NCBI GenBank assembly: GCA_014879945.1
Contig: JACSRE010000158.1
Location: 1-44,650, forward strand
Origin: Myxococcus sp.
GTDB taxonomy: Bacteria > Myxococcota > Myxococcia > Myxococcales > Myxococcaceae
Direction: 5' to 3'
DNA length: 44,650 nucleotides
Shown here: one piece after another, positions 1,197 through 17,958 of the stretch
Layout of the letters: each line of letters starts with the position of its first letter
Numbering within the stretch: position 1 is the first letter of the stretch
Position numbers and translations under genes: made by a program
The notes under the pieces: generated by a model
Told to the model about the DNA's origin: nothing
Database searches by the model: none
Seen by the model: the letters and a program-made list of their open reading frames with translations, nothing else

Positions 1197-2708
1197 TCAG
1201 AGCCCGTCGCTCGGCTCGTCGGACGCGGGCTTCTTCGGCTCTTCTTTCCGGGGCGCTTCCTTCTTCGCCTCGGGGGCCGGCGCGGGCCTGGCGGGCGGCG
1301 GCGGCGCGGCCTTCGGCGCCTCCTCCTTCTTGGGCTCCGCTTTGCCGTCGGCGGGCTTCGCCTCGTCCTTGAGCGCGTCGGCGGCGGCCTTGCCCTTCGC
1401 CGCGTCTTGCTGCTTCTTGAACTCCTCTTCCTTCTGCTTGCGCTCTTCTTCCTTGGCGGCGGCCTCGGCCTTCTTCATCTCTTCTTCCATCTTCTTGGCT
1501 TCTTCTTCCGCCTTCTTCATCTCTTCGCGGGTCGCGATGGCGGCCTCTTGCTCCTTGATGAGCTCGAAGACCTGGTGGTTCGCGTTGACCGAGGTCTCAC
1601 CGCCCGAGAGCTGAACGAACTGCTTGTAGTAGGTCAGCGCCTTCTCGGGGTCGCCCTTGAGGCCGATGATGATGCCGCGGTTCAGGTAGAGCGCGGGGAG
1701 GTTGGGGTTGAGCTTCTGGGCCGCGTCGTACGCCTGGAGCGCCTTGTCGATCTGCCCCATGCCCTTGTAGGCGACGCCGAGGTTCACCAGCGCCTCGGCG
1801 TTGTTCCCGTTGGCCTGGAGGATGCGGCGCACGTGCTCCTCGGCGCTGCCGTAGTCCTCTTGATCGAAGGCCATCTTGGCGAGCTGGTAGTGCGCGGGCA
1901 GGAAGTCGTTGCGGGCCTCCACCGCGCGCTTGAACTGCACGCGGGCCTTCACCGGCTCCTTCTCGGCGAGGTTGAGCAACCCGAGCGTGTAGTAGATCTC
2001 GGGGTCGTTCTCTTCGATCTTGGTCGCGCGCAGCGCGATGAGCCGGGCCAACGAGTACTGCTTCTGCTCGTAGTGCACCTGCATCATCGTCTTGTAGGCC
2101 TGCAGCGTGCGCGGGTCGCGGAAGAGCGCCTCCTTGGCCAGCTCGAGGGCGCGGCCGCTCTCACCACGGCGTCGGTGGATCTCGGCCAGCCGCGCGCGGC
2201 TCCCGGCGTCGTCGGGGTACGTCGCGAGGATGTTCTCGTAGATGGCGACGGCGCCCTTCTCGTCGCCCTGGTTCTGGGCGATCACCGCGAGGTTCTCGGC
2301 GGCCTGCCGGAGGGTGGGCTTCTTCGCGAGCGCCTCTTTGTAGAAGGCCACCGCGTCCTTCGTCTTGCCCTGGCGCTCGGCGATGACGCCCAGGTTGTAG
2401 GTGGCCTCGGCGAGGTTGTCGTCGGCGTCGGCCGCGCTACGGAACTTCTTCTCGAGGGTGGCCCAGTCGTACTGGCCCGTCTTCTTCTGGGTCTCGAAGG
2501 CCTTCACAGCGTCTTCGAACATCAGCTTCGCCTTGCTCGAGATCTGCGGCGCGTCGTCGGCGCGCGCGGCGCCGCCTCCAGAGCGCACCTTCGGGCCGTC
2601 GACGCGAACGTCGGCGCCGGCCTCGGTCGTCTTGCAGGCGGGGGCCGCCAGGGCGACCAACGCGGCGACGGCGCCGCGGACCATCAACTTCGTCAAGGGG
2701 GCGCTCAC
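1197..2708 (-). CDS. gltE: TPR lipoprotein, GltE/AglT-like
   Basis: 503 residues from a GTG whose GTGA overlaps the stop of the upstream TPR gene, so the two are translationally coupled. The N-terminus has a hydrophobic run ending LAAPAC, with Cys25 as a probable lipid-attachment residue, although Pro in the lipobox is unusual. Residues about 65-370 hold a series of TPR units with the typical spacing (YNLGVIAERQGKTKDAVAFY, LVNLGVAYKGMGQIDKALQAY). Residues about 390-445 are a Lys/Glu/Ala-rich coiled coil, followed by a Pro/Ala/Lys-rich tail. In Myxococcus AglT (GltE) is an outer-membrane TPR lipoprotein of the gliding apparatus; NfsE is its paralogue. Gene order supports this group, but gliding versus Nfs assignment is open. 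Confidence 0.75.
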   Translation of the reverse strand: MSAPLTKLMVRGAVAALVALAAPACKTTEAGADVRVDGPKVRSGGGAARADDAPQISSKAKLMFEDAVKAFETQKKTGQYDWATLEKKFRSAADADDNLAEATYNLGVIAERQGKTKDAVAFYKEALAKKPTLRQAAENLAVIAQNQGDEKGAVAIYENILATYPDDAGSRARLAEIHRRRGESGRALELAKEALFRDPRTLQAYKTMMQVHYEQKQYSLARLIALRATKIEENDPEIYYTLGLLNLAEKEPVKARVQFKRAVEARNDFLPAHYQLAKMAFDQEDYGSAEEHVRRILQANGNNAEALVNLGVAYKGMGQIDKALQAYDAAQKLNPNLPALYLNRGIIIGLKGDPEKALTYYKQFVQLSGGETSVNANHQVFELIKEQEAAIATREEMKKAEEEAKKMEEEMKKAEAAAKEEERKQKEEEFKKQQDAAKGKAAADALKDEAKPADGKAEPKKEEAPKAAPPPPARPAPAPEAKKEAPRKEEPKKPASDEPSDGL

Positions 2709-5700
2709 AGCGTGTCCTCCGGCTCGTCGTCGTTCCTGGGCTTCGTGGGCGCGGGCGCCGCGGGCTTGTTGGTGGCGGTCGTCGCCCTGGGCTTCTCGGC
2801 CTTCGGCTCAGGCTTCGGCTCTGACCTGGGCGGGGGGAGCGTGTCGGGGTCTTCACCGCGGGGCCGCGCGTCGACCACGTTCTTCCCAACGCCCGAGGTG
2901 TTGTTCTTCAGCTCGGCGGCGCTCTCGGCCGAGATGGTCGGAATGGGCTGAATCGAGGTGAGCAGCCCCTGCCCGATGGCGCTGAGCCTGGCGCCCTCTT
3001 CGGGCTTCAGCTCGAACGTCTCTTCGGCCATCTTGGGGAACTGCTCGGGCTTGTACCTGGTGCGCAGCAGCTCGAGCGCCTTGGCGGAGCACGGGTTGAA
3101 GACGTCGAGCTCCTGGCTCTTCTGCACGGTGGCCGCGAACGCCTCGGCCGCCTTCTCACGAATCGGCATCGCCTCCTGGTTGAACTGGGTCTTCACCTCG
3201 AACAGCAGCTCCTCGGGGATGCCCTTGGGCACTGGCGGGTTGGCGAGCGCCTCGGCGAACTGATCGTAGGCCAGGCCGATGCGGGCCAGCGCGCAGATGG
3301 CGGGGTCGGCCGACTTGAACTGCACCGTCTTGGTGTACGCCTTCTGAATGTCTTCCAGGCCCTTGGCCTTGGTCTTGATCGAGCCCTTCAGCTCTCCGAT
3401 GTTCTGGAGCGTCGTCCACTTGAGCTTGATGGCCGAGTAGCGCTTGAAGTCGTCTTCGTTCATCACGAACGAGGCGCGCGCGACGGCGTCGAGGGCCTGA
3501 ATGTCGAGCGCGTCCTTCTGCTTCTTGTTGAGCTTCTCGTAGTAGTCGAGCACCCGAATGAAGATCTTCCGCGCGCCGGTCGGGTTCTTCAGCTTCTCTT
3601 CGTAGATCGAGGCGATGCGCCCCTCGGCCCAGAGCAGTTTGCTGGGGTCCTTGATCTGGTCCTTCTCGTACTCCTCGTAGAGCTTCTGCGCCTTCGCCCA
3701 GAGGTTCATCTTCTCATGGAGGTCGATGATCGACTTGGTCACCGCCTCGGCGTCCTTCGACTTGGGCCACAGCTCGAGGTACTTCTCGCGGTTCTTCAGC
3801 GCCTGCTTGTACTGGCCGAGCCCGTCGCGGAAGACGCCGGCGTTGTAGAGCGCATCCTGAGCCTTCTGCTCCTCCCAGACCTGCTCGGCGGCCGGCGCGA
3901 CCTCTTTCTTGCCCCTGGGGGCGGCCTTCTTCGCCGGGCCCTTGCTCTTCTCGTAGTTGGCCGCGTACCGCTCGTAGTGATCGGCGGCGTCGTCGAAGTC
4001 GGCGACGGCCTCGTAGCCCTCGGCGAGCGCGTAGAGCGTCTTGGGCACGTACTGCGACTTCGGGTAGCGCTGAATGAGCTGCTTGCGCACCTCGATGGCG
4101 CGGTCGAGGGCCTTGGCGTTGAAGTAGTCGATCGACGCGTTGTAGAGCGCCTTGTCGGCCAGCTCGCTCTTGGGCCAGTCCTGCACGAAGGTCATGTAGG
4201 CGTCGGCGGCCTTGGCGTACTCGTTCTTCGCCTCGAGCTGGTTGATGAGCTTGAACGACGACTGCTCGATCAGCTTGGCGAGATCTTCACGGAACTTGCC
4301 GGTCGCGAGCTTCTCTTCGGCGTAGAACTTCTTGGCCCACTCGTTCACCTTCCCCCAGTCCTGGAGAATGTTGTACGAGTCGAGCACGAGGTTGGCGGCG
4401 ATCTCGCCCGCGCGGTCTCCGTTCTCGAACTTGTAGTCGGGGTGCTTGAGCGCGATGTCGGCGAAGCGCGAGACGGCTTCGTCGAGGTAGTTGTAGTCGT
4501 AGTAGATCTTCGCGGCCTTGTAGGCGATCTCGACCTTCTTCTCGCCCTTCTCCACGTACTTCAGGTACCGCTCGCACGAGTCGAGCAGCGCCTGCTTCAC
4601 CGGAGGGATGGCCGCCTTCTTCGAGGGGTCGCCGCCGCCCGAGGCCGACTTGCCGCCGTCGGCCGTCGCCATCTCTTTGAGGAGCGAGTCCCACGCGAGG
4701 ATCGAGTTGTAGGCGGCGTTGTTGAGCCACTTGCCGGGCTTGCCGGGGCTGCCCTCGACCTTCTTCTCGAGGCGGTCGATGTCGGTGAGGGTGACGCGCG
4801 TGTACTCCTCGGCCGCGCGCTGGTACTTGCTCAGGTTGTCGTTGAGGAGCTCGGCCCAGAAGAAGCGCAGATCGTACGCCTTGGGGCTCTCGGGGAAGAG
4901 CGTGAGGTAGTCGGCGTAGACCTCGTTGGCGAAGCCGAAGGTCTCTTCGTCGCGGGTCTTCTTGGCTTCGTTGTGCCAGTTGACCGCGAGGTTCGAGATG
5001 GTGCGCTCCGAAAGCTCGCGCGCCTCGTCGAGGGCCTTCTTGTCTTTGTCGTTCATCGACGGGTTGCCCTTGAGCACGTCGTCCATGATCTTCACGAGGC
5101 GGCGCACCTGGGTGACGGTCTGGCGCTTGTTGCCGGCGCGCATGACGCAGTCGACGATCTTCCCCTGGAAGCCGGGGGCGTCGGGCGCGGTGGGGCGCTC
5201 CTTGATCAGCATGTCGAAGGTGACGGCGGCTTCGCGGTCTTTGCCGTCTTCGTAATAGAGGTTCGCGAGCTGCTTCATCATCAGGCGCAGGTCGTCGGCC
5301 TTGTTGGCGAGCTTGCTGAAGCGGTCCTTCGCCTCGGTGGGCGTGCCACCGCCGCGCGAGTAGGCGCGCACGTAGTCGTTGCGGGCTTCCTTCACCAGGC
5401 CCTGGCGGCGCGACTTGCCCTTGCCCTCGACCTCTTCGGCGCCCTGCATCTCGGCGTAGAGGACCACCGTCTTGAACTGGTCCATGGCCTTGTCGTAGTC
5501 GGCCATGTTGAAGTGACACCAACCCTGCTTGTAGAGCGCGTAGCCGTAGACCTTGTTGTCGGGGTACTTCGCGGCGTTCTTGTAGTTCTCGAGGGCCTTC
5601 TCGAGCTGGTCGCGCTTGCCCTTTGAGCCGTTGAAGTAGAACTCGGCGACGGCCAGGTAGGCGTCGGGCAGGTACTTCGACTTCTGGTACTTCTCGATGA

Positions 5701-6319
5701 GGCGCTTGTACGAGGCGAGCGCCTTCTTCTGGTTCTTCTCGTCCGACGAGTCCATCAGGTTGAGGCCGAGGAAGTAGAGGACCTCGTCGGTGCGCTCGTA
5801 GTTTTTGTACTCCTGGACGATGAGGTAGTACTTCTCGACGGCGAGGTCGGCGAACTCCTTCGACTTGGCCATCAGCTCGGCCTTCTCGGCCTCGGCGCGC
5901 TGAACGCCCGCGTCGTCTTTGGCGTTCATCGCCTTGATCTTGTCGTCGTCCTTGCGGTTGGCCTCGAAGAAGAAGTGCTTCGACTCTTCCCAGTAGAGCT
6001 CGCCGAGGCGGAACAGCAGGCCCGGCTTCTCTTTCTTGTCGGTCGACAGCTCGATGATCTTCGACAGGTCGGTGATCTGCTCACGCCGCTTCGAGGCGAC
6101 CTGCAGCTCCACGTCGAGCCGGAAGGTGTCGTACGAGAGGGTCGGCGCCTCTTCTTCCTTCTTCTTCTTGCGCGTGATGTCGCCGGCGAGCGACTTGTCG
6201 GGCGCGATCGACGTTTCCTTCTTCTTCAGCTCGGCATCGACGGCCTCTTTCTTCGCAGCTGGGGCCTGGGCGAGCGCGAACGAGGAGACGAGGAAGAGAC
6301 TCGTAATCAGTGGACGCAT
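2705..6319 (-). CDS. gltD: Large periplasmic TPR protein, GltD/AgmU-like
   Basis: 1,204 residues from ATG 6319. Residues 1-18 are a signal peptide (MRPLITSLFLVSSFALAQ); a longer in-frame reading to 6400 would bury it. Nearly the whole chain is TPR-like helical repeats, visible as repeated ALYxxG/A, Yxxxx-YPKS and KALxxYKxxxxKYPxS units, ending in a Pro/Lys-rich tail (about 1150-1204). Myxococcus AgmU (GltD) is a TPR protein of about 1,200 residues required for adventurous gliding, and NfsD is its sporulation paralogue; size, signal peptide and the coupled TPR lipoprotein agree with that family. It is probably a scaffold binding other machine parts in the periplasm. It is the first gene of the cluster in transcription order, with a candidate promoter about 100 bases upstream. 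Confidence 0.75.
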   Translation of the reverse strand: MRPLITSLFLVSSFALAQAPAAKKEAVDAELKKKETSIAPDKSLAGDITRKKKKEEEAPTLSYDTFRLDVELQVASKRREQITDLSKIIELSTDKKEKPGLLFRLGELYWEESKHFFFEANRKDDDKIKAMNAKDDAGVQRAEAEKAELMAKSKEFADLAVEKYYLIVQEYKNYERTDEVLYFLGLNLMDSSDEKNQKKALASYKRLIEKYQKSKYLPDAYLAVAEFYFNGSKGKRDQLEKALENYKNAAKYPDNKVYGYALYKQGWCHFNMADYDKAMDQFKTVVLYAEMQGAEEVEGKGKSRRQGLVKEARNDYVRAYSRGGGTPTEAKDRFSKLANKADDLRLMMKQLANLYYEDGKDREAAVTFDMLIKERPTAPDAPGFQGKIVDCVMRAGNKRQTVTQVRRLVKIMDDVLKGNPSMNDKDKKALDEARELSERTISNLAVNWHNEAKKTRDEETFGFANEVYADYLTLFPESPKAYDLRFFWAELLNDNLSKYQRAAEEYTRVTLTDIDRLEKKVEGSPGKPGKWLNNAAYNSILAWDSLLKEMATADGGKSASGGGDPSKKAAIPPVKQALLDSCERYLKYVEKGEKKVEIAYKAAKIYYDYNYLDEAVSRFADIALKHPDYKFENGDRAGEIAANLVLDSYNILQDWGKVNEWAKKFYAEEKLATGKFREDLAKLIEQSSFKLINQLEAKNEYAKAADAYMTFVQDWPKSELADKALYNASIDYFNAKALDRAIEVRKQLIQRYPKSQYVPKTLYALAEGYEAVADFDDAADHYERYAANYEKSKGPAKKAAPRGKKEVAPAAEQVWEEQKAQDALYNAGVFRDGLGQYKQALKNREKYLELWPKSKDAEAVTKSIIDLHEKMNLWAKAQKLYEEYEKDQIKDPSKLLWAEGRIASIYEEKLKNPTGARKIFIRVLDYYEKLNKKQKDALDIQALDAVARASFVMNEDDFKRYSAIKLKWTTLQNIGELKGSIKTKAKGLEDIQKAYTKTVQFKSADPAICALARIGLAYDQFAEALANPPVPKGIPEELLFEVKTQFNQEAMPIREKAAEAFAATVQKSQELDVFNPCSAKALELLRTRYKPEQFPKMAEETFELKPEEGARLSAIGQGLLTSIQPIPTISAESAAELKNNTSGVGKNVVDARPRGEDPDTLPPPRSEPKPEPKAEKPRATTATNKPAAPAPTKPRNDDEPEDTL

Positions 6320-6372
6320 GGGACTGTTCCCGAAACAAGGGCGAGTACGCGAGGGCATCGTGGCGTTACGAA

Positions 6373-6390
6373 CGAGGCTACCGAGCCTCG
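6373..6390 (-). terminator. Hairpin between the envelope operon and the gltD-like gene
   Basis: A perfect 7-bp stem, CGAGGCT paired with AGCCTCG around a 4-base loop CGGT. It lies 70 bases after the stop of the 6461-7291 gene and 54 bases before the gltD-like start. It may terminate the upstream operon. If the promoter at 6418-6447 is real, the hairpin instead lies in the gltD leader. No clear U tract follows (TTCGT), so termination is uncertain. Confidence 0.4.
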
Positions 6391-6417
6391 ACTCCTTCAA
6401 CCCTTTGAGAGGCGCGG

Positions 6418-6447
6418 ATTCTCGCCGCTCGGGTCAAGGAAGGTCAA
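6418..6447 (-). promoter_or_regulatory. Candidate promoter of gltD-like operon, with tandem TTGACC
   Basis: On the minus strand TTGACC (6447-6442), an 18-bp spacer and GAGAAT (6423-6418) resemble a sigma-70-type promoter. A second TTGACC (6437-6432) follows the first exactly 10 bp later, one helical turn, which could be a protein-binding direct repeat. The predicted leader would be about 90 bases. Identified by eye only. Confidence 0.4.
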
Positions 6448-6460
6448 GCAATCCGCGAGG

Positions 6461-7291
6461 CTAACGGCCAAGCAGCTCGAGCAGCGCCCGGGCCTTGCCC
6501 ACCTTGCGAACGTCGTCGCCCACCTGCACCACCAGCTCGATCGACGGGTCTCGCACGATCAGCGACTTGAGCAGCCACGGCTCGACATCGGGGTTCACCT
6601 CGACGCGGGTGCCGATGCCGCAGGGAAACACCCCGTCGCTGACGGCCAGGAGCATGGCCACGTGCAGCTCGGCAGCCGGCTCGGCTGGGTCTCGTGAGGC
6701 GCAGTCGCGGGGCAACAAGAACCCCGGCGAGACGACGACGGCCTTTCGGCCGGGGAGCGCCTTGAACTGGCTCCATTGGAGCAGGTCGACCGCGCCCGGC
6801 GGCGACCACCGCGTGAAGGATGGCCGCTGGGCCACCAGCAGCGCGCGCCGGGCGTCGTCGAGCTCGCCGCGGACCTCGAGCGCGAGGGGCCTGCGGCCGC
6901 GAAACCGCGACAACGGCGCGCTCAGCGCCTCGTCGAGCGGCAACCACAGGCCCGCGGCGGGTGCGCGGCTGAGCGCTTTGCCGTCGACGGCAGTGAGCGG
7001 CGGCCGCAGCTGCACCCACGCGGCGCCGAACAGCCTGAGCGTCTCGAGGGTGGACTCGCGCAGCGTGTTGGAGCGGGTGGTGAGCCACAAGGTGACCTCG
7101 GGCCTGGCGAGCGCGCGCAGCACGTCGGGCTCGAGCTCTTCGCTCGCGACGACGTGCACTCGCACCGAGCGCCCGACGACGAGGTCGGGGGTCTGTGCCG
7201 GCAGCGGGCGCTGGGCCTGCGCCGTGGCCACCGACGCCAGGAGCGCCGCGACGAGGCTACTGGTTCTTCTCAATCCACTTCGCGAACGCAT
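6461..7291 (-). CDS. Secreted protein of unknown function (276 aa)
   Basis: Begins at ATG 7291, overlapping the end of the FecR-domain gene by 35 bases; a TTG at residue 7 is an alternative start. Residues 1-26 look like a signal peptide (LVAALLASVATAQA). The rest is mixed alpha/beta with no motif I recognise. It contains RVHVVASEELEPDVLRAL, an LWLTTRSNTLRESTLETLRLF segment, and two Cys (in PRDCAS and FPCGIG) that could form a disulfide. It is the last gene of a five-gene operon of exported proteins. I do not assign a function. Confidence 0.7.
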   Translation of the reverse strand: MRSRSGLRRTSSLVAALLASVATAQAQRPLPAQTPDLVVGRSVRVHVVASEELEPDVLRALARPEVTLWLTTRSNTLRESTLETLRLFGAAWVQLRPPLTAVDGKALSRAPAAGLWLPLDEALSAPLSRFRGRRPLALEVRGELDDARRALLVAQRPSFTRWSPPGAVDLLQWSQFKALPGRKAVVVSPGFLLPRDCASRDPAEPAAELHVAMLLAVSDGVFPCGIGTRVEVNPDVEPWLLKSLIVRDPSIELVVQVGDDVRKVGKARALLELLGR

Positions 7292-7982
7292 CGCGCCTGG
7301 CCGCCTCTTCGAACTGCGCCACGTCCCAGAGGTCGACGCCCACCGCGATCTGCTGGTTCTGCTGCAGGTCGACGAACTTCTTCTCCCACTCGTCAGCGCT
7401 CACCTCGGTGGGGCCGGCGACCTGCACGCGGGGGCCCTTCTTCGGCGGCGGCGCGGCGCCGGTCGAGGCCTTCGCCACCATCGCCGACGGCCTGATGTTC
7501 ACGGTGCCTTCGACGATGCGCACGATCGACGCCTTGCGCGCCCTGGGGGGCTTCGAGGCGGTCACCATCTTGTCGGCGTCGATGCGGAAGATGGTGCCGC
7601 GCACGCCAGCCACCGCGCGCTCGGTCGACACCTCGTAGCCGCCGCCGCCGAGGGCCTTCTTCACCTTCGTCCACAGGCTGCCCGACTGGAGCAGCGCCTT
7701 GAAGCCCTTGCGCTCCTGGCCCTCGAACTCGGCCTCGGTGATCTCGAGCTTCGACGCGGGCGCCAGCATGATGATGCTCTCGTCGGTGAGCTCGAGCTTG
7801 AGGTTGCCGCTCTTGACCTCGATGGTGTCGCCCAGCTCGATCGCCGAGTCCTTCGCGAGCGCGACGGCCTGCCCTCCCCTGGGCGTGCGGGTGGCGGCGC
7901 CCTCCAGCAGGGCGACCTTGCCGACCTCGGCCGAGGCGACCACCGCGCACAGCAACGCTGCCAGACTGAAAAGGCGCTTCAT
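7257..7982 (-). CDS. FecR-domain exported protein
   Basis: 241 residues from ATG 7982, with GGAGGAAG just upstream; the ATGA overlaps the stop of the preceding lipoprotein gene. Residues 1-18 are a signal peptide ending VVASA. Residues about 20-165 carry the FecR fold: VGKVALLEGAATRTPRGG, an IELGDTIEVKSGNLKLEL strand pair, SIIMLAPASKLEI, then TERAVAGVRGTIFRID and a further VEGTVNIR. This domain is found in periplasmic regulators and in many surface proteins. No sigma factor or TonB receptor gene lies nearby, so classical iron-dicitrate signalling is unlikely here. The C-terminal 75 residues are basic and helical. Confidence 0.85.
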   Translation of the reverse strand: MKRLFSLAALLCAVVASAEVGKVALLEGAATRTPRGGQAVALAKDSAIELGDTIEVKSGNLKLELTDESIIMLAPASKLEITEAEFEGQERKGFKALLQSGSLWTKVKKALGGGGYEVSTERAVAGVRGTIFRIDADKMVTASKPPRARKASIVRIVEGTVNIRPSAMVAKASTGAAPPPKKGPRVQVAGPTEVSADEWEKKFVDLQQNQQIAVGVDLWDVAQFEEAARRDAFAKWIEKNQ

Positions 7983-8323
7983 GGACTTCCTCCGTTGGGC
8001 AGCAACGTCACGTTCATCACGACGCGGGTTTGATCCGCGGCCAGCCAGCTCTCCCACGTCACGAACCCGGCCTTCTTCACTTCGACCCGTCGCGGCCGCT
8101 CGCCGACCTTCAGCGCGCGGGGCTCGCCGTTGAAGTCACTGCAGAGCCCCTGAGAGACCCCGTCGAGCGCCACCTCGGCGTCGACCGGCTGGCACTTGAG
8201 CACCAGCTCGCCTGCGCCCGAGACCCGGTAGGGCCGCAGCCGTGTCTCGGTGACCCTGGGCATCGAGGTCAGGCCCGAGGGGGCCGCGGCACACCCCGCG
8301 AGGAGCAGCAGACTCCACTTCAC
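7979..8323 (-). CDS. Small lipoprotein with PEGA-like domain
   Basis: 114 residues. The GTG at 8323 forms a GTGA overlap with the upstream gene, and its own stop forms an ATGA overlap with the FecR gene, so all three are coupled. The signal LLLLAGC is a good lipobox with Cys11 as the lipidated residue. The mature part (about 40-108) resembles a PEGA beta-sandwich: LVLKCQPVDAEVALDGVSQG, then RRVEVKKAGFVTWE and a final VVMNVTLLP strand. PEGA domains are common in surface proteins and kinase sensor regions. It is probably an envelope structural or assembly part of the operon. Confidence 0.75.
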   Translation of the reverse strand: MKWSLLLLAGCAAAPSGLTSMPRVTETRLRPYRVSGAGELVLKCQPVDAEVALDGVSQGLCSDFNGEPRALKVGERPRRVEVKKAGFVTWESWLAADQTRVVMNVTLLPNGGSP

Positions 8324-9540
8324 TTCGCGACGGTGACCTCGACGAGGTTCGACTTCACGGTCGTCACGACGATCTTCCTCTTCTTGAAGCTCGCGCCCTT
8401 GAGCGCCTTCCCGAAGTCGCTCGCGTTGCCCATGAAGACCACGTTGTAGTTGGCCTTGCCGTCGGCGAAGTCGCTGGAGCGCACGCTCTTGACGCCAGAC
8501 ACCGCATTGAGGGCCTGCTCGAAGTCCTCAGCCGCGTCGAAGTCGATGCCGTTGACCACCATCGAGACGGGCGACCCGTTCACGTCCTGGTTGCGGAGGT
8601 CCTCGAAGATCGCCGCGAAGACGGCCGAGACGATCTCGGAGGCCGTGTTTTCGGCCGCGAGCGACGCACTCTGCCCATACGAGAGCCCGGCTTTGGAGAC
8701 GTCGTTCTTCATCGAGGTGGGCTTCAACCGACCGGCGACCCGGCCGAGCTCGCGCCCGGTCTTGGTCTCGAACATCGACAGATCGTAGTCACCCGCGACG
8801 TAGAACAGAATCTGCTCACCCTTCGCGTTGAGCTCGGGGATCACCTGGTAGGGCTGTGGAGGCAGGTAACGGGTGGTGGCGTTGCCGTAGACGATGAAGT
8901 CAGCGTCGGTCTTCCGGGCAACTTCTTTTGCGTCGAGCTTTCCCTGGGCGGCGCCGCTGGCCACCGTCAGCGCGCCCTCGCCGGTGGCCTTCTCGTTGAT
9001 GATGGTGAAGTTCGCTTCGCTGAACTTCTTCCGCAACGCCGTCGAGATGAACTCGCTCTTCGTGGCGATGCCCTTGTCGTCCATCAACTGCTCCTGCAGC
9101 ACCACGAGCAGCTTGGCCTGGTGCAGGCGACCGACGATCGCCTGGGCCGCCTTCATGTCCTTGTCGAGGGTCGCGGTGCTGATCACCGCCTTGACCTTGA
9201 CGCTGACGAGGGTCTGGTTGGCAGGTGTCGTCTTGCGGCTATCGGACAGCACCTCGTAGGACTTCACGTAGCCCGAGGCGTTGGCCGACACGCGGTCGAC
9301 GACGAGGGCGCTGTTCCGGGTCATCGAGGTCGAGTCGATCATCACGCCGGCCGCCTGCTCCACCGCAGCGCGCAGCGCCTGTTTGAGTGCGCCGTCGTAG
9401 GCCGCTTGCAGACGCTCTGGCAGCGGGATCTTGGCCGTCTGCGCGACGGCGAACTCGCCAGTCGTCTCTTTGACGACCGTGTCCTGGGCCAGCGCGAACG
9501 TGGCGAGCAGCCCTGCGAGGAGTGAAAGTGATCTGAGCAT
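8320..9540 (-). CDS. FlgT-like exported protein
   Basis: 406 residues from ATG 9540, preceded by GAGGAACC. Residues 1-18 are a signal peptide (MLRSLSLLAGLLATFALA). Residues about 45-140 match the N-terminal fold of flagellar assembly protein FlgT and related proteins: ALKQALRAAVEQAAGVMI, a DRVSANASGYVKSYEVLS turn and a LVSVKVKAVIS strand. The middle (about 145-300) has KLLVVLQEQL and ADFIVYGNATTRY, recalling the CsgG/FlgT middle domain. The last 80 residues look like a second small alpha/beta domain (NGIDFDAAEDFEQALNAVSGV). In Vibrio, FlgT forms a ring at the flagellar base. No flagellar gene is in the window, so the ring or pore role is inference. Confidence 0.7.
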   Translation of the reverse strand: MLRSLSLLAGLLATFALAQDTVVKETTGEFAVAQTAKIPLPERLQAAYDGALKQALRAAVEQAAGVMIDSTSMTRNSALVVDRVSANASGYVKSYEVLSDSRKTTPANQTLVSVKVKAVISTATLDKDMKAAQAIVGRLHQAKLLVVLQEQLMDDKGIATKSEFISTALRKKFSEANFTIINEKATGEGALTVASGAAQGKLDAKEVARKTDADFIVYGNATTRYLPPQPYQVIPELNAKGEQILFYVAGDYDLSMFETKTGRELGRVAGRLKPTSMKNDVSKAGLSYGQSASLAAENTASEIVSAVFAAIFEDLRNQDVNGSPVSMVVNGIDFDAAEDFEQALNAVSGVKSVRSSDFADGKANYNVVFMGNASDFGKALKGASFKKRKIVVTTVKSNLVEVTVAK

Positions 9541-9548
9541 CTGGTTCC

Positions 9549-10424
9549 TCAGTTGAAGACGATGACGACCTTGCCCTGCGCAAGGAACGGGGGGTTCATC
9601 GAGACGAGCTTCTTCGCCTCGTCTTGTGAGAGGAGCACGTCGGCGCCGTTGGCCTTGGCGGCCTTCATCACCACCGGCTTGTCTCCCGCCTTGAGGCTCT
9701 TCTTCGCCTCTTCGAGCGACTGCACGTAGGCGGCGACGCCGGTCGTCTTGCGGGCGTCGGCCGAGAGCGAGTCGACGGTGTAGAGGGGCTTGCCGGTCTC
9801 GTCGAGGATGCGCGGGAGCAGCGCCGGCATCAGCTTGAGCCCACGCGCGTCGATCACCAGACCCGTGCCACCCGCCTCGGAGGGCTTCGCCGCGGCCTCG
9901 GGGGCCTTCGCCACGGCCTCGAGCGCCTTGATGGGCTCGGAGGCCTTCTCGGCGGGCTTGTCGCTGGGCTTCTTCTCGGGCGTCGCCGGCACCGCGAGCT
10001 GCTGGGTGGCGTCGGGGTCGAGGATGTCGGTCAGCATCGCGACCGGCACCTCGATGTCGATCTCGACGCCGTTGTCCGAGAAGTACCGCTTGTTGGTGAT
10101 CTTGTAGCCGCGGATGACGCCCTCGACGCGCGCCTTCACCTCGTCGGCCTTCATCACGTCGTCCATCTTGCGGGTGGCGTCGACCTGCACGCCCTTGATC
10201 TGCTCGAGCATCTTGCGAAACGCGTCGAGCTGCGCGGCGCGCTCGGCCCCCAGGCGGGCCTGGGCGGGGCTCGAGGCCTTCATGTCGGGGGCCCCGGCGC
10301 CGGTCGCGCGCACCACCTGGCCCTCCCAGTTCATGCCCTGCGGCGGGCCCTTCGCGTCTTTCTGGCTTTCGGCGGCCGCGAACACGGACACGGCCAGCGC
10401 CACTGCCAACACCAATCGTTTCAC
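9549..10424 (-). CDS. LPP20-family (FlgP-like) exported protein
   Basis: 291 residues from GTG 10424, with a GGGGG run upstream. A signal peptide (VLAVALAVSVFAAAES) lacks a lipobox Cys. Residues about 33-135 carry the LPP20 pattern: VVRATGAGAP, ARLGAERAAQLDAFRKMLEQIKG, VEGVIRGYKITNKRYF and VEIDIEVPVAML. A Lys/Pro/Ala-rich linker (about 145-190) leads to a second domain with TGLVIDARGLKLMPALLPRI and a final GKVVIVFN strand. LPP20 proteins include FlgP, an outer-membrane ring component in Vibrio and Campylobacter. It sits eight bases before a FlgT-like gene, mirroring the FlgP/FlgT partnership, but without other flagellar genes. First gene of the operon. Confidence 0.75.
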   Translation of the reverse strand: MKRLVLAVALAVSVFAAAESQKDAKGPPQGMNWEGQVVRATGAGAPDMKASSPAQARLGAERAAQLDAFRKMLEQIKGVQVDATRKMDDVMKADEVKARVEGVIRGYKITNKRYFSDNGVEIDIEVPVAMLTDILDPDATQQLAVPATPEKKPSDKPAEKASEPIKALEAVAKAPEAAAKPSEAGGTGLVIDARGLKLMPALLPRILDETGKPLYTVDSLSADARKTTGVAAYVQSLEEAKKSLKAGDKPVVMKAAKANGADVLLSQDEAKKLVSMNPPFLAQGKVVIVFN

Positions 10425-10466
10425 GGGGTACCCCCTGGAAGGCCTGAAGAAGACTGCGCGGTGGCT

Positions 10467-10496
10467 ACTCTACGGACGATTCGCGCAGACCTTCAA
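10467..10496 (-). promoter_or_regulatory. Candidate promoter of the LPP20/FlgT-like operon
   Basis: TTGAAG (10496-10491), an 18-bp spacer and TAGAGT (10472-10467) on the minus strand, giving a predicted leader of about 35 bases before the GTG at 10424. Four of six bases match the sigma-70 consensus at each hexamer. Identified by eye only. Confidence 0.4.
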
Positions 10497-10515
10497 GGGA
10501 AGTGGCCCCGACCGG

Positions 10516-10851
10516 TCAGTGCTCGGCGTTGCGCGAGACGAACTGGTCGATCATGCGGCGGTGGCGCTCGGTGAGCAGGGTGAAGCGCACGCCCGAGCCC
10601 TCCTCCTCGCGATCCATGTCGAGCCACTCGCGCACCACCTCGCCCTCGGCGTAGATGACCTCCTCCGAGCCGGGCAGCTGGAACTGGAGCCCCACCCGCT
10701 TGCCGGCCATCTGGGGCTCGATGAGGTGCGCCAGCCCGAGGCCTTCACGCGAGATGTCCGACGAGCGCGCCATGTAGGGCACTCCGGCCACGTACTTGTT
10801 CAAGTAGATGTCGAGAGAGACCCGGTCGTTCTTCCGCTTGTTGTTGGCCAT
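10516..10851 (-). CDS. PilZ-domain protein
   Basis: 111 residues, a single PilZ domain. RKNDRV near the N-terminus resembles the RxxxR c-di-GMP-binding arm, and DISREGLGL matches the D/NxSxxG motif with one residue varied (DISREG). The C-terminal half has GLQFQLPGSEEVIYAEGEVV and GVRFTLLTERHRRMIDQF, both typical. ATG 10851 has CGGAG five bases upstream. PilZ proteins bind c-di-GMP and act through protein partners. A diguanylate cyclase gene lies 9 kb away at 19669-21639. It appears to be a single-gene transcription unit, with its own candidate promoter and an upstream terminator. Confidence 0.85.
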   Translation of the reverse strand: MANNKRKNDRVSLDIYLNKYVAGVPYMARSSDISREGLGLAHLIEPQMAGKRVGLQFQLPGSEEVIYAEGEVVREWLDMDREEEGSGVRFTLLTERHRRMIDQFVSRNAEH

Positions 10852-10903
10852 GCACGCTCCGTTGAGGTGACAGCTGCTGCACTGCTGCAGCGAGCTGTTG
10901 CGG

Positions 10904-10931
10904 AGCGTACGGACCTGATCAGCGACGTCAA
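10904..10931 (-). promoter_or_regulatory. Candidate promoter of the PilZ gene
   Basis: TTGACG (10931-10926), a 16-bp spacer and TACGCT (10909-10904) on the minus strand. The -35 hexamer begins inside the T-run of the preceding terminator. The predicted leader of about 46 bases contains a direct repeat of CTGCTGCA (plus-strand reading). Confidence 0.4.
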
Positions 10932-10952
10932 AAAAGCCGCCGAAACGTCAGC
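10930..10952 (-). terminator. Intrinsic terminator of the metallopeptidase gene
   Basis: On the minus strand a short hairpin (GCTG, A, CG, loop TTT, CG, G, CGGC; one G-T pair and one mismatch) overlaps the stop codon at 10948-10950 and is followed directly by six Ts. This is the clearest rho-independent terminator in the window. Confidence 0.55.
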
Positions 10953-13044
10953 GAACTTGCGCTGGCCGCTGATCAGGCGTCGGGGCGGGCGCGAGCGCCT
11001 TCTCGGTGGCGCGCAGGAGCGGCTCGGCGCTCACCGGCGCGCCCGTGGCGCCCGTCATCCACACGTCGGGCGCGACCGCGCCCTGCACCGACATGCGCTC
11101 GATCTCGGGCCCCACCACGCCCGTCTTGTTCACCTGCTCCTCGATCTGAAACGCGATGAGGTGCCCGAGCGGGTAATTGAACAGGTAGAGCGGGTAGCTG
11201 ATCATGTGGGAGTAGATGCCCAGCAGCGGTGTGTCCTTCCCGCCCAGCACCGGCGCGTAGTGCTGGTTCCACACGCGCCGGGCGATGCCGACGGTCGCCT
11301 CTCGCAGCTGCGCGGGGGTGGCCTTCGGGTTCTCGGCCATCCAGTGCCAGACCTCGAGATCGACCAGCGCGACCCCGGCGATCTCCCAGGTGGCCCAGAA
11401 GTCGTTGAGCACGCGCAGGCGCTCCTGGTCGGCCGACGGCTTGCCCAGGCCCAGCAGCTCGAGGTCGCGCGCCTGAAAGACGAAGGCGATGGCCTCGGTG
11501 AAGGCGGTGTTGGGCACGCCCGCCAGGAGCGTGTGGTCGACGTCGTAGAGCGAGAACACCTGCTCCACGTTGTGGCCCAGCTCGTGGACGGCGATGTTGT
11601 AGCCCTTGTAGTTCATGCCCTCCTTCTCGACCCGGGTGCGCAGGCGGGGGAAGTCGCCGCGCCGCGCCGCCTGCATCGCGTGCCCTGCCCCACGCGAGGG
11701 GTCGACCTTGATGCGCTCGGCGAGGTACTTCGCCCGCGCGGCCGAGAAGCCCAGCCCGGTGAGGATGCGGGGGATGTCCTTCGCGAACGCCTCGGCCGTC
11801 GGGTAGCGGGCGCGCACCTTCGCGTCGAGCTCGGCTTCGGGGACCGCGCCGCGCGGGAGGAAGCCGTTGAACCAGAGATCGGTGGGCTCGAGCGGCCGGC
11901 CGAGCCGCCGCTGGACTTCGGCGGCCACCCGGGGCACCTGGGGCGAGGTCAGCACCGCCTCGAGCAGCTTCCGCACGCGGGCCTCGGGCATCTCGGCCCC
12001 GAGCGCGAAGGCCCGGTCGATGGCCGAGGGCGCGGTCGGTGAGAACGGGTCGGCGCGCTGCTGCGCCAGGTTGTTGGCCCACAGCCGCTGGTACCGAACG
12101 TCGGGCTCAGGGGTGGTGGCCGGCGTGGCCGGGCGCTTCGGCGCGTCGTCCTCGACCGTCTCGGCCGGCGCCACCGTGACGGCGTTGGTGAACGGGTTCC
12201 AGTCGAGCCGCGGGTTGTCGATGACCGCCGCGGGGATGGACTGGGTGACGATGCGCTCCATCACCTTGATGATCGCCCGCTGCCTGGGCAGGCCCTTCGG
12301 GTCGGCGTACTGGGCCTTGAGCTCGTCGCGCAGGTTCCAGTGGCTGATCAGGCGCTTGCCTTTGGGAAAGAGCCGCTCCCCCGACGCCGAGAGCACGTGG
12401 TGCATCCACACGTTGTACTCGGCGATGTAGAGGTCGGCGGCGGCCTGCGCGGCGGTGATGCCCTGCTGCACCTCGGCCGGCACGCGCCGGGCGAAGCGCC
12501 CCGTCAGCCGCGCCTGGGCCCACTGCCTGCGGCTCCACGACGGGCCCTGGGCGAGGCGCTCGTCGAGGGTGGTGAGGGGGAAGTTGAGCAGGGCGACGAA
12601 GGCCAGCTTCGAGGCGAAGAGGTCTTCGGTGAGGTGCGCTGCGGGGTCCCACGCGGCGAACAGCGGGTCGACCTTCTCGAGCGGGCCGAGGTCGAGCTCA
12701 GTAGGCCGGCGCAGCTCCCGGCCGATCTCGAGCAGGTGCCCGTCGATCTGCTCGAGGTTGGTCTCAAAGCGCGTGAAGGCCGCGTCGAGCCGCGCTGGCT
12801 CGGCGATGAAGTGCTCGAGGGCGAAGGTCGAGAGCTCGCCGTCTGCGCTCGTCCACAGCGAGGCCACTTGCCGCACGCCCTGCTCGACGCGTGAGCGCGC
12901 CGCTTCTCCGTGGAGCGCGATCAGCTTCGCCTCGAGGGCCGCCGTGTCGGGGCGCTTCGTGGTGAGCGACTTCACCGGGGCCACCGCTTTCGGGGCCGCG
13001 CCCGTGAGGGGCCCAGCAGCCAGGAGGATCAGGAGGATCGACAT
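10948..13044 (-). CDS. Exported zinc metallopeptidase with HELGH motif
   Basis: 698 residues from ATG 13044; an in-frame TTG at 13080 would add 12 residues. The N-terminus is a signal peptide (MSILLILLAAGPLTGAAP). His487-Glu488-Leu-Gly-His491 is a classical zinc site, with Glu517 in TAFTEAIAF as a likely third ligand, as in gluzincins. The pattern VHELGHNVEQ recalls the M3 oligopeptidase superfamily, but the rest of the chain is not a standard M3 enzyme. The N-terminal 300 residues are mostly helical. Substrate unknown; it probably acts in the periplasm. It lies 55 bases after the M23 peptidase gene and may be co-transcribed with it. Confidence 0.8.
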   Translation of the reverse strand: MSILLILLAAGPLTGAAPKAVAPVKSLTTKRPDTAALEAKLIALHGEAARSRVEQGVRQVASLWTSADGELSTFALEHFIAEPARLDAAFTRFETNLEQIDGHLLEIGRELRRPTELDLGPLEKVDPLFAAWDPAAHLTEDLFASKLAFVALLNFPLTTLDERLAQGPSWSRRQWAQARLTGRFARRVPAEVQQGITAAQAAADLYIAEYNVWMHHVLSASGERLFPKGKRLISHWNLRDELKAQYADPKGLPRQRAIIKVMERIVTQSIPAAVIDNPRLDWNPFTNAVTVAPAETVEDDAPKRPATPATTPEPDVRYQRLWANNLAQQRADPFSPTAPSAIDRAFALGAEMPEARVRKLLEAVLTSPQVPRVAAEVQRRLGRPLEPTDLWFNGFLPRGAVPEAELDAKVRARYPTAEAFAKDIPRILTGLGFSAARAKYLAERIKVDPSRGAGHAMQAARRGDFPRLRTRVEKEGMNYKGYNIAVHELGHNVEQVFSLYDVDHTLLAGVPNTAFTEAIAFVFQARDLELLGLGKPSADQERLRVLNDFWATWEIAGVALVDLEVWHWMAENPKATPAQLREATVGIARRVWNQHYAPVLGGKDTPLLGIYSHMISYPLYLFNYPLGHLIAFQIEEQVNKTGVVGPEIERMSVQGAVAPDVWMTGATGAPVSAEPLLRATEKALAPAPTPDQRPAQVR

Positions 13045-13099
13045 GGCGCGCACCCTCGTGAAACGAGAGCGCGCTGACAAGCACGAAAACGCTCGGCGC

Positions 13100-16812: not shown

Positions 16813-16828
16813 CCGCTCAGCTCAGCGG
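16813..16828 (-). terminator. Hairpin at the stop of the LysM gene
   Basis: CCGCT and AGCGG pair around GAGCTG, overlapping the stop codon of the LysM gene. There is no T tract after it. It could help terminate transcription before recN, which appears to have its own promoter. Confidence 0.25.
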
Positions 16829-17958
16829 TTGGCGGTGCGAGGGGCCGACACCACCATCTCGGCGACGTCCCCGACGACCAGCTCGCGCATGGTGAAGGTG
16901 AGCACGCACGCCGAGGCCTTCGACTTCACGTCCATCACCATGCAGGCGCCGACGGGCTCGCGCGGAAACGCCTCGTCGTTCTCTTGCGGGTTGAAGTGGC
17001 GGTTGATGGGCGCGGTGTCTCCGGAGCGGAAGAAGGTGAAGGTGTTGCCGACCTTCACGCCGTCGTCGGCGCCCTTGTCGACGATGACGATGAACGACTC
17101 GCTCTGGTGGTGGGTGTAGCGCTTGGCGCCGGCGACGAGGGTCGCGCCCTTGACCTCACGATCGTTGGCGCGCGGGGCCACCGTGCGAATGACCGACTCG
17201 CCCGCGGGGCTGACCGAGTCGCCGCGGTGGATCTCGTCGACGCTGCGGGTGATCTTGATGGTGGCGATGTTCTTCTTGGAGTCCACGGCCACCACGCTGC
17301 CCTCGCCGACGATGCGGGTGAGGTAGCCGATCAGCTCGCGGCTGACGGGGTGGAAGACCTCGCCGCCGTCGCGGTAGATGACGGTCGAGTCGCCCACCTT
17401 GAGGTTCTTCTTCCCCGAGATGTCGACGTAGGCCGAGAACGGAATGGTGAGCATCTCGTTCTCTGCGAAGGAGCCGACGATGTGGGCGGTCTGCTCGAGC
17501 TCTTTGGTGGTGACGAAGCCGATCATCGCCAGGGTGACCGCGTTCTTGGGGCGGTAGCCGATCTGGCCGGCCTTGGTCACGCCCTCGCCCTCGTCGAACA
17601 CGCCCTCTTCGACGTCGGGCACCTCGGTGCCGACCTCGACCTGGGTGGGCTGCTCATCGGCGCCGTAGAAGCGCACCAGGTTGCCCGGGTAGATCCAGTG
17701 GGGGTTGGCGATGTCGGGGTTGTACGACCAGACCTTGGGCCAGTACCACGGGCTGCCGAGGAACTTCTGCGACAGATCCCACAGGGTGTCGCCGCGCTCG
17801 ACGGTGTGTGACGCGTTGGGGGCCTCGGTCGGCCTGCCAGCGGGCTCGGGGCTGACGCTGGCGGCGCCCTCCATGTTGGCCGCGCCTTCTTCTTCTTCTT
17901 GCGCGAAGGCGGTGGTGGCCAGCGTGAGGGCAGCGAGGACGACGGTCAGATGACGCAT
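16822..17958 (-). CDS. Exported LysM-domain protein
   Basis: 378 residues from ATG 17958, with AAGGAA before it and only four bases after the upstream stop. Signal peptide 1-19 (VVLAALTLATTAFA), then an acidic stretch. Residues about 50-98 are a LysM domain with HTVERGDTLWDLSQKFLG and NPHWIYPGNLVRF, which binds peptidoglycan. The remaining 270 residues are beta-rich: IGFVTTKELEQTAHIVGSF, a KVGDSTVIYRDGG segment, VAVDSKKNIATIKITRS, and VGNTFTFFRSGD. No catalytic motif is visible. It is likely a periplasmic protein that binds the cell wall, co-transcribed with the CpoB-like lipoprotein. Confidence 0.85.
   Translation of the reverse strand: MRHLTVVLAALTLATTAFAQEEEEGAANMEGAASVSPEPAGRPTEAPNASHTVERGDTLWDLSQKFLGSPWYWPKVWSYNPDIANPHWIYPGNLVRFYGADEQPTQVEVGTEVPDVEEGVFDEGEGVTKAGQIGYRPKNAVTLAMIGFVTTKELEQTAHIVGSFAENEMLTIPFSAYVDISGKKNLKVGDSTVIYRDGGEVFHPVSRELIGYLTRIVGEGSVVAVDSKKNIATIKITRSVDEIHRGDSVSPAGESVIRTVAPRANDREVKGATLVAGAKRYTHHQSESFIVIVDKGADDGVKVGNTFTFFRSGDTAPINRHFNPQENDEAFPREPVGACMVMDVKSKASACVLTFTMRELVVGDVAEMVVSAPRTANR

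Follow-up and report, generated by a model that had tools for sequence, protein, structure and literature searches.

FlgP and FlgT are regarded as accessory parts of the flagellum, and their origin is unclear. Genes for two related proteins lie beside gliding genes in a Myxococcus genome, which raises the question of what such proteins do away from flagellar genes. They belong to a block of five minus-strand genes within the 44,650-nucleotide stretch of DNA analyzed here (the window). In order, the block encodes an LPP20/FlgP-like secreted protein (positions 9549 to 10424, GTG start), a FlgT-like secreted protein (8320 to 9540), a PEGA-type lipoprotein (7979 to 8323), a secreted FecR-domain protein (7257 to 7982) and a secreted protein that we call E (6461 to 7291). 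The first two genes are 8 bp apart, the FlgT-like/PEGA and PEGA/FecR junctions are 4-bp overlaps (GTGA and ATGA), and FecR and E overlap by 35 bp. A sequence-only reading had described five tightly coupled genes with these overlaps, and both the genes and the overlaps are confirmed; its protein names (LPP20, FlgT-like, PEGA, FecR and unknown secreted) proved correct, given the Pfam matches and those of relatives. A PilZ-domain protein is encoded directly upstream (10516 to 10851, minus strand; Pfam PilZ, E = 4.3e-11), and its gene adjoins the block in most loci of the host family and in several other loci. Most members of the family also encode, close to the block, a 710-residue secreted protein that has no Pfam match and contains a HELGHN-like zinc-protease motif (10948-13080).

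The LPP20 protein on its own scored just below the Pfam cut-off (LPP20, E = 1.5e-5, 25.8 bits against a cut-off of 25.9). A profile of the family matched Vibrio FlgP (PDB 8z5n, E = 8e-6; FlgP structures overall 8e-6 to 6e-5), so that one component of the H-ring, a FlgP homologue of the LPP20/SHS2 family, is present in the block. The same profile matched Treponema pallidum Tp0624 (PDB 5jir, E = 7e-12), its positions 55-261 aligning to residues 32-262 and covering domains D1 and D2 in order; the protein thus has, besides its LPP20 domain, a counterpart of Tp0624 D2 as its second domain, and it lacks the OmpA-like domain of Tp0624. The available text of PMC5104382 describes the D1-D2 pair as uncharacterised and reports no operon with FlgT. 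Ring formation in the FlgP family accompanies an insert after the long helix (PMC12222027). The alignment to Vibrio FlgP is nearly free of gaps through this stretch, which is consistent with a ring-forming insert and falls short of proof. The lipobox of a FlgP-type outer-membrane lipoprotein was absent from 35 of 36 LPP20 homologues.

For the FlgT-like protein of the window alone, the Pfam match to FlgT_N was marginal (E = 0.027). All 33 homologues aligned matched FlgT_N (best E = 2.5e-12), so that the N-terminal domain of the H-ring protein FlgT is found here as well. An AlphaFold model (pLDDT 84) had Vibrio FlgT as its best solved structure in Foldseek (3w1e, E = 2e-9; 8z5n, E = 5e-9). VIA-align gave Z 10.9 over 249 residues against 3w1e, with an rmsd of 15.9 that reflects differently placed domains, and Z 10.6 with an rmsd of 3.9 over 151 residues against 8z5n. 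The middle domain resembles TolB-N, LpoB, PelC, CsgG, GNA1162 and FlgO, which form a broad superfamily. The C-terminal domain differs: FlgT_C (PF16538) was unmatched in the protein and its homologues, and the host genome contained no FlgT_C match at E 0.001. A search of the host genome with the FlgT_N family gave no match anywhere, and its controls were likewise unmatched. Judged from profiles and the predicted model, the homology to FlgT is real and remote. An unrelated, well-described family, which would have explained the protein otherwise, did not emerge; FlgT itself was the best match. In five genomes, FlgT matches with E values near 1e-4 turned out to be cross-matches to LPP20; they were excluded from the FlgT counts. 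Elsewhere in the window, a LysM protein (16822-17958) has a marginal match to FlgT_C (0.022).

Of the remaining proteins, FecR is clearly recognizable (Pfam FecR, E = 6.4e-11), and neither the PEGA lipoprotein nor E of the window matched Pfam. The former was assigned from its lipobox (LAGC), its conserved position and a Desulfobacterota orthologue (L138) that matches Pfam PEGA (1.8e-5). E is predicted to form a TIM-like (beta/alpha) barrel: its model (pLDDT 84) matched generic barrels, among which designed TIM-like barrels scored highest (Z 12.5). Homologues of E were restricted to the host family by tblastn.

The order LPP20-FlgT-PEGA-FecR is conserved across Myxococcota and in Desulfobacterota, with PEGA undetected in some loci, and the gene order of the block is kept in dozens of genomes, far beyond chance. 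We took loci L138-L143, deposited as, for example, Syntrophaceae or Deltaproteobacteria, as Desulfobacterota. The block adjoins thrS-infC in most loci, and because it does so in both phyla, this is probably its ancestral site. A fuller, seven-gene operon beside thrS-infC in Desulfobacterota (L138:547-6799) reads LPP20, TPR/SLH lipoprotein, FlgT, GNA1162-like (1.5e-23), CsgG (5e-29), PEGA and FecR, and the CsgG protein itself carries FlgT_C (7e-7). The TPR gene matched GltE through a generic repeat, and orthology was rejected. CsgG is part of the operon at L138-L141, L143 and the Myxococcota locus L156, where two CsgG genes lie between FlgT and PEGA, and the extra FlgT copies at L060 and L185 also adjoin CsgG. 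The operon thus joins genes of the CsgG/GNA1162 lipoprotein systems in the Desulfobacterota relatives, and the FlgT middle domain has a related fold, whereas the operon of the window contains neither a CsgG nor a GNA1162 gene. We found no paper in the open-access literature that joins FlgT or FlgP to CsgG, FecR or PEGA, and none that describes FlgT or FlgP in myxobacteria.

Within the host genus, flgT stands out from its surroundings. Between the congeners G002 and G004 most of the flanking DNA is 93-98% identical, and the segment from about residue 150 of FlgT to the start of PEGA is 41-59% identical. Breakpoints against L040 and L045 fall inside FlgT and at the PEGA start, and the window holds a third allele. 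Its FlgT clusters with those of genera g5 and g19, apart from its own genus (AU test, p = 3e-9). Fast evolution of FlgT was rejected as the cause: pairs with the same allele diverge normally (81% for FlgT in G004/G005 against 83-86% in LPP20, PEGA and FecR; mostly 91-97% for FlgT in Corallococcus pairs), and the low identities are therefore due to replaced alleles. On these alignments, FlgT alleles are exchanged in place by recombination, and the allele of the window is foreign to its genus. Such replacement hints at a partner of FlgT that varies. In the host family there were 6 changes of state for FlgT and 7 for FecR, nearly always shared by both (of the independent pairs, 5/5 or 4/5 are co-losses; p about 0.06). 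Compared with L106, Corallococcus L104 and L112 show two separate clean deletions of flgT and fecR with PEGA left between them; C. praedator (L110) has kept FecR and lost FlgT. A locus titled Comamonas sp. KCTC 72670 (L117) sits inside Myxococcus on the tree and is probably mislabelled or contaminated.

The explanation that we favor, with somewhat more confidence than doubt, is an ancient periplasmic ring or scaffold locus of the FlgP/FlgT family that is independent of the flagellum and was ancestrally associated with a CsgG-type channel. We infer ring assembly, membrane location and pore association as follows. A fold that forms rings in the H-ring and basal disk of flagella is shared by the LPP20 protein and by the FlgT-like protein in its N-terminal domain; the two may oligomerize as concentric rings under the outer membrane, to which the PEGA lipoprotein would anchor them. 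FecR could partner FlgT, since the two are lost together. The ancestral operon also held genes for a channel of the CsgG type and a lipoprotein of the GNA1162 type, so the ancestral ring is likely to have enclosed or gated a pore in the outer membrane; the CsgG and GNA1162-type genes would then have been lost from most Myxococcota. In the clade of the window, a single rearrangement brought the block to its present place immediately upstream of glt G1. Compared with the Vibrio H-ring/LPHT ring (FlgO, FlgP, FlgT), the block has in common the LPP20/FlgP fold, FlgT_N, a FlgO/FlgT-type middle domain and the neighboring position of the genes. It differs in lying outside a flagellar cluster and occurring without flagella, in an LPP20 protein that is unlipidated and has an extra second domain, in a FlgT-like protein without a detected FlgT_C, and in its additional partners PEGA and FecR. 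Several points speak against a scaffold: the missing LPP20 lipobox, the unmatched FlgT_C, the absence of CsgG from the operon of the window and an association of FlgT with the flagellar protein FlgH when genomes are counted.

This association bears on an alternative that we consider unlikely, namely that the operon supplies an H-ring or basal disk from a distance in flagellated lineages and is a relic, or has a second use, elsewhere. The sequence-only reading had found nothing else flagellar, which holds within the window and fails for the genome: contig C206 of the host carries a cluster with FlgF, G, H, I, K, L, FliD, FliS, FliJ and FliF, and because of this cluster and its FliF the host is probably flagellated, contrary to the premise of that reading. 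FlgH is present in 7/7 genomes of the host genus. The block genes are the host's only LPP20 and FlgT-like matches, 14/16 FlgH-positive genomes of the family keep FlgT, and the losses of FlgT fall in lineages without FlgH. Across the phylum, 33 genomes have FlgT and FlgH, 15 FlgH only and 64 FlgT only. The resulting odds ratio of 2.9 (p = 0.003) by genome also favors the alternative, but it is inflated by relatedness, and the association falls to 1.3 (p = 0.63) by genus. All six genomes with FlgT and without FlgH that were checked for FliF, five from the family and G069, contained only YscJ of the type III secretion system and no FliF. Conversely, several flagellated genomes have no FlgT, for example G045, G085 and G088 (family f5). 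The surroundings of the operon in relatives were searched for flagellar genes, whose presence would have contradicted the sequence-only reading, and none occurred in any block locus fetched. Hence, unlike the H-ring, the block is neither restricted to flagellated genomes nor encoded with flagellar genes, and with 64 FlgT-positive genomes lacking FlgH, no flagellar neighbors and no association by genus it is not tied to flagella, though a flagellum may make use of it where one exists. Members of the Myxococcaceae are known for gliding and pili, and a flagellar cluster alongside the Glt gliding cluster is unusual there; the window's relatives in this family encode both (L146 and L147, host contig C206).

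The gliding machinery itself offers another alternative, in which the clade of the window recruited the block as an outer-membrane ring or anchor of the Glt machine. Downstream of the block, all on the minus strand, lie gltD, for an AgmU-like TPR protein (2705 to 6400, likely real start near 6319; TPR matches, orthologues adjoining GltE/CglF/GltG), gltE (1197 to 2708; NF033758, E = 2.5e-171), cglF (490 to 747; the same protein as L044:17238-17495, CglF 4.9e-38) and, cut by the contig end, the N-terminal part of gltG (3 to 404; assigned by translation, the congener L044 matching GltG at 1.2e-278). The order GltD-GltE-CglF-GltG is readable in the window and confirmed in a congener. With GltE at 570 bits against a cut-off of 225, this is a genuine G1 cluster, and the earlier term Glt-like was an understatement. 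The block is directly adjacent to and co-directional with these genes in about 16 loci, an arrangement kept since a single origin, and a UDG gene that separates E from gltD in several genera of this adjacency clade was lost in the genus of the window. FlgH was found in 13/15 genomes with the adjacency (all except G010 and G107). On a tree of 49 loci, however, a single change accounts for the adjacency, a secondary rearrangement away from thrS-infC, and the link to Glt that the sequence-only reading drew on is young. Corallococcus sicarius, a gliding relative, has FlgT and no GltD within the locus fetched. A promoter-like site precedes gltD (6418 to 6447, minus strand; the single sigma-70-like site in 6250-10950, where shuffling expects 0.1), which suggests that gltD may have its own promoter. 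M. xanthus AM003 (L123) has kept PilZ-LPP20-PEGA at thrS and lacks FlgT and FecR, so the block is not conserved with glt in gliders; because this glider has lost both, FlgT and FecR are, on the genomic evidence, not core gliding parts. The block also lies outside the Glt/Agl gene sets G1, G2 and M1 described in the available text of Luciano 2011 (PMC3169522). Recruitment by Glt therefore seems rather improbable to us. We give still less credence to a general envelope-integrity or stress module that forms no ring and works with TolB-, LpoB- or GNA1162-like lipoprotein partners. It would agree with the resemblance of the FlgT middle domain to TolB-N, LpoB, PelC and GNA1162, with FecR and PEGA as generic envelope domains and with the repeated dispensability of block genes; against it, FlgT is the best whole-protein match, and LPP20 and FlgT_N are conserved together.

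Overall, our analysis partly supports the original interpretation of the operon as a FlgP/FlgT envelope structure for a non-flagellar machine. A more far-reaching version of the flagellum-independent ring locus, which we put forward as speculation and think doubtful, is that LPP20-FlgT-CsgG-PEGA-FecR at thrS-infC in Desulfobacterota and Myxococcota could be an undescribed non-flagellar ring machine, older than or parallel to the H-ring; it would have been captured by the gliding locus in one flagellated, glt-bearing clade, and FlgT would be the subunit responsible for recognition, with allele swapping as the source of its diversity. For the uncharacterised D1-D2 pair of Tp0624, the locus supplies relatives whose genomic context is known. 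A conserved non-flagellar locus with FlgP and FlgT, joined by CsgG in its fuller form, is a concrete candidate for the source or a sister system of the H-ring, whose origin thereby becomes testable.
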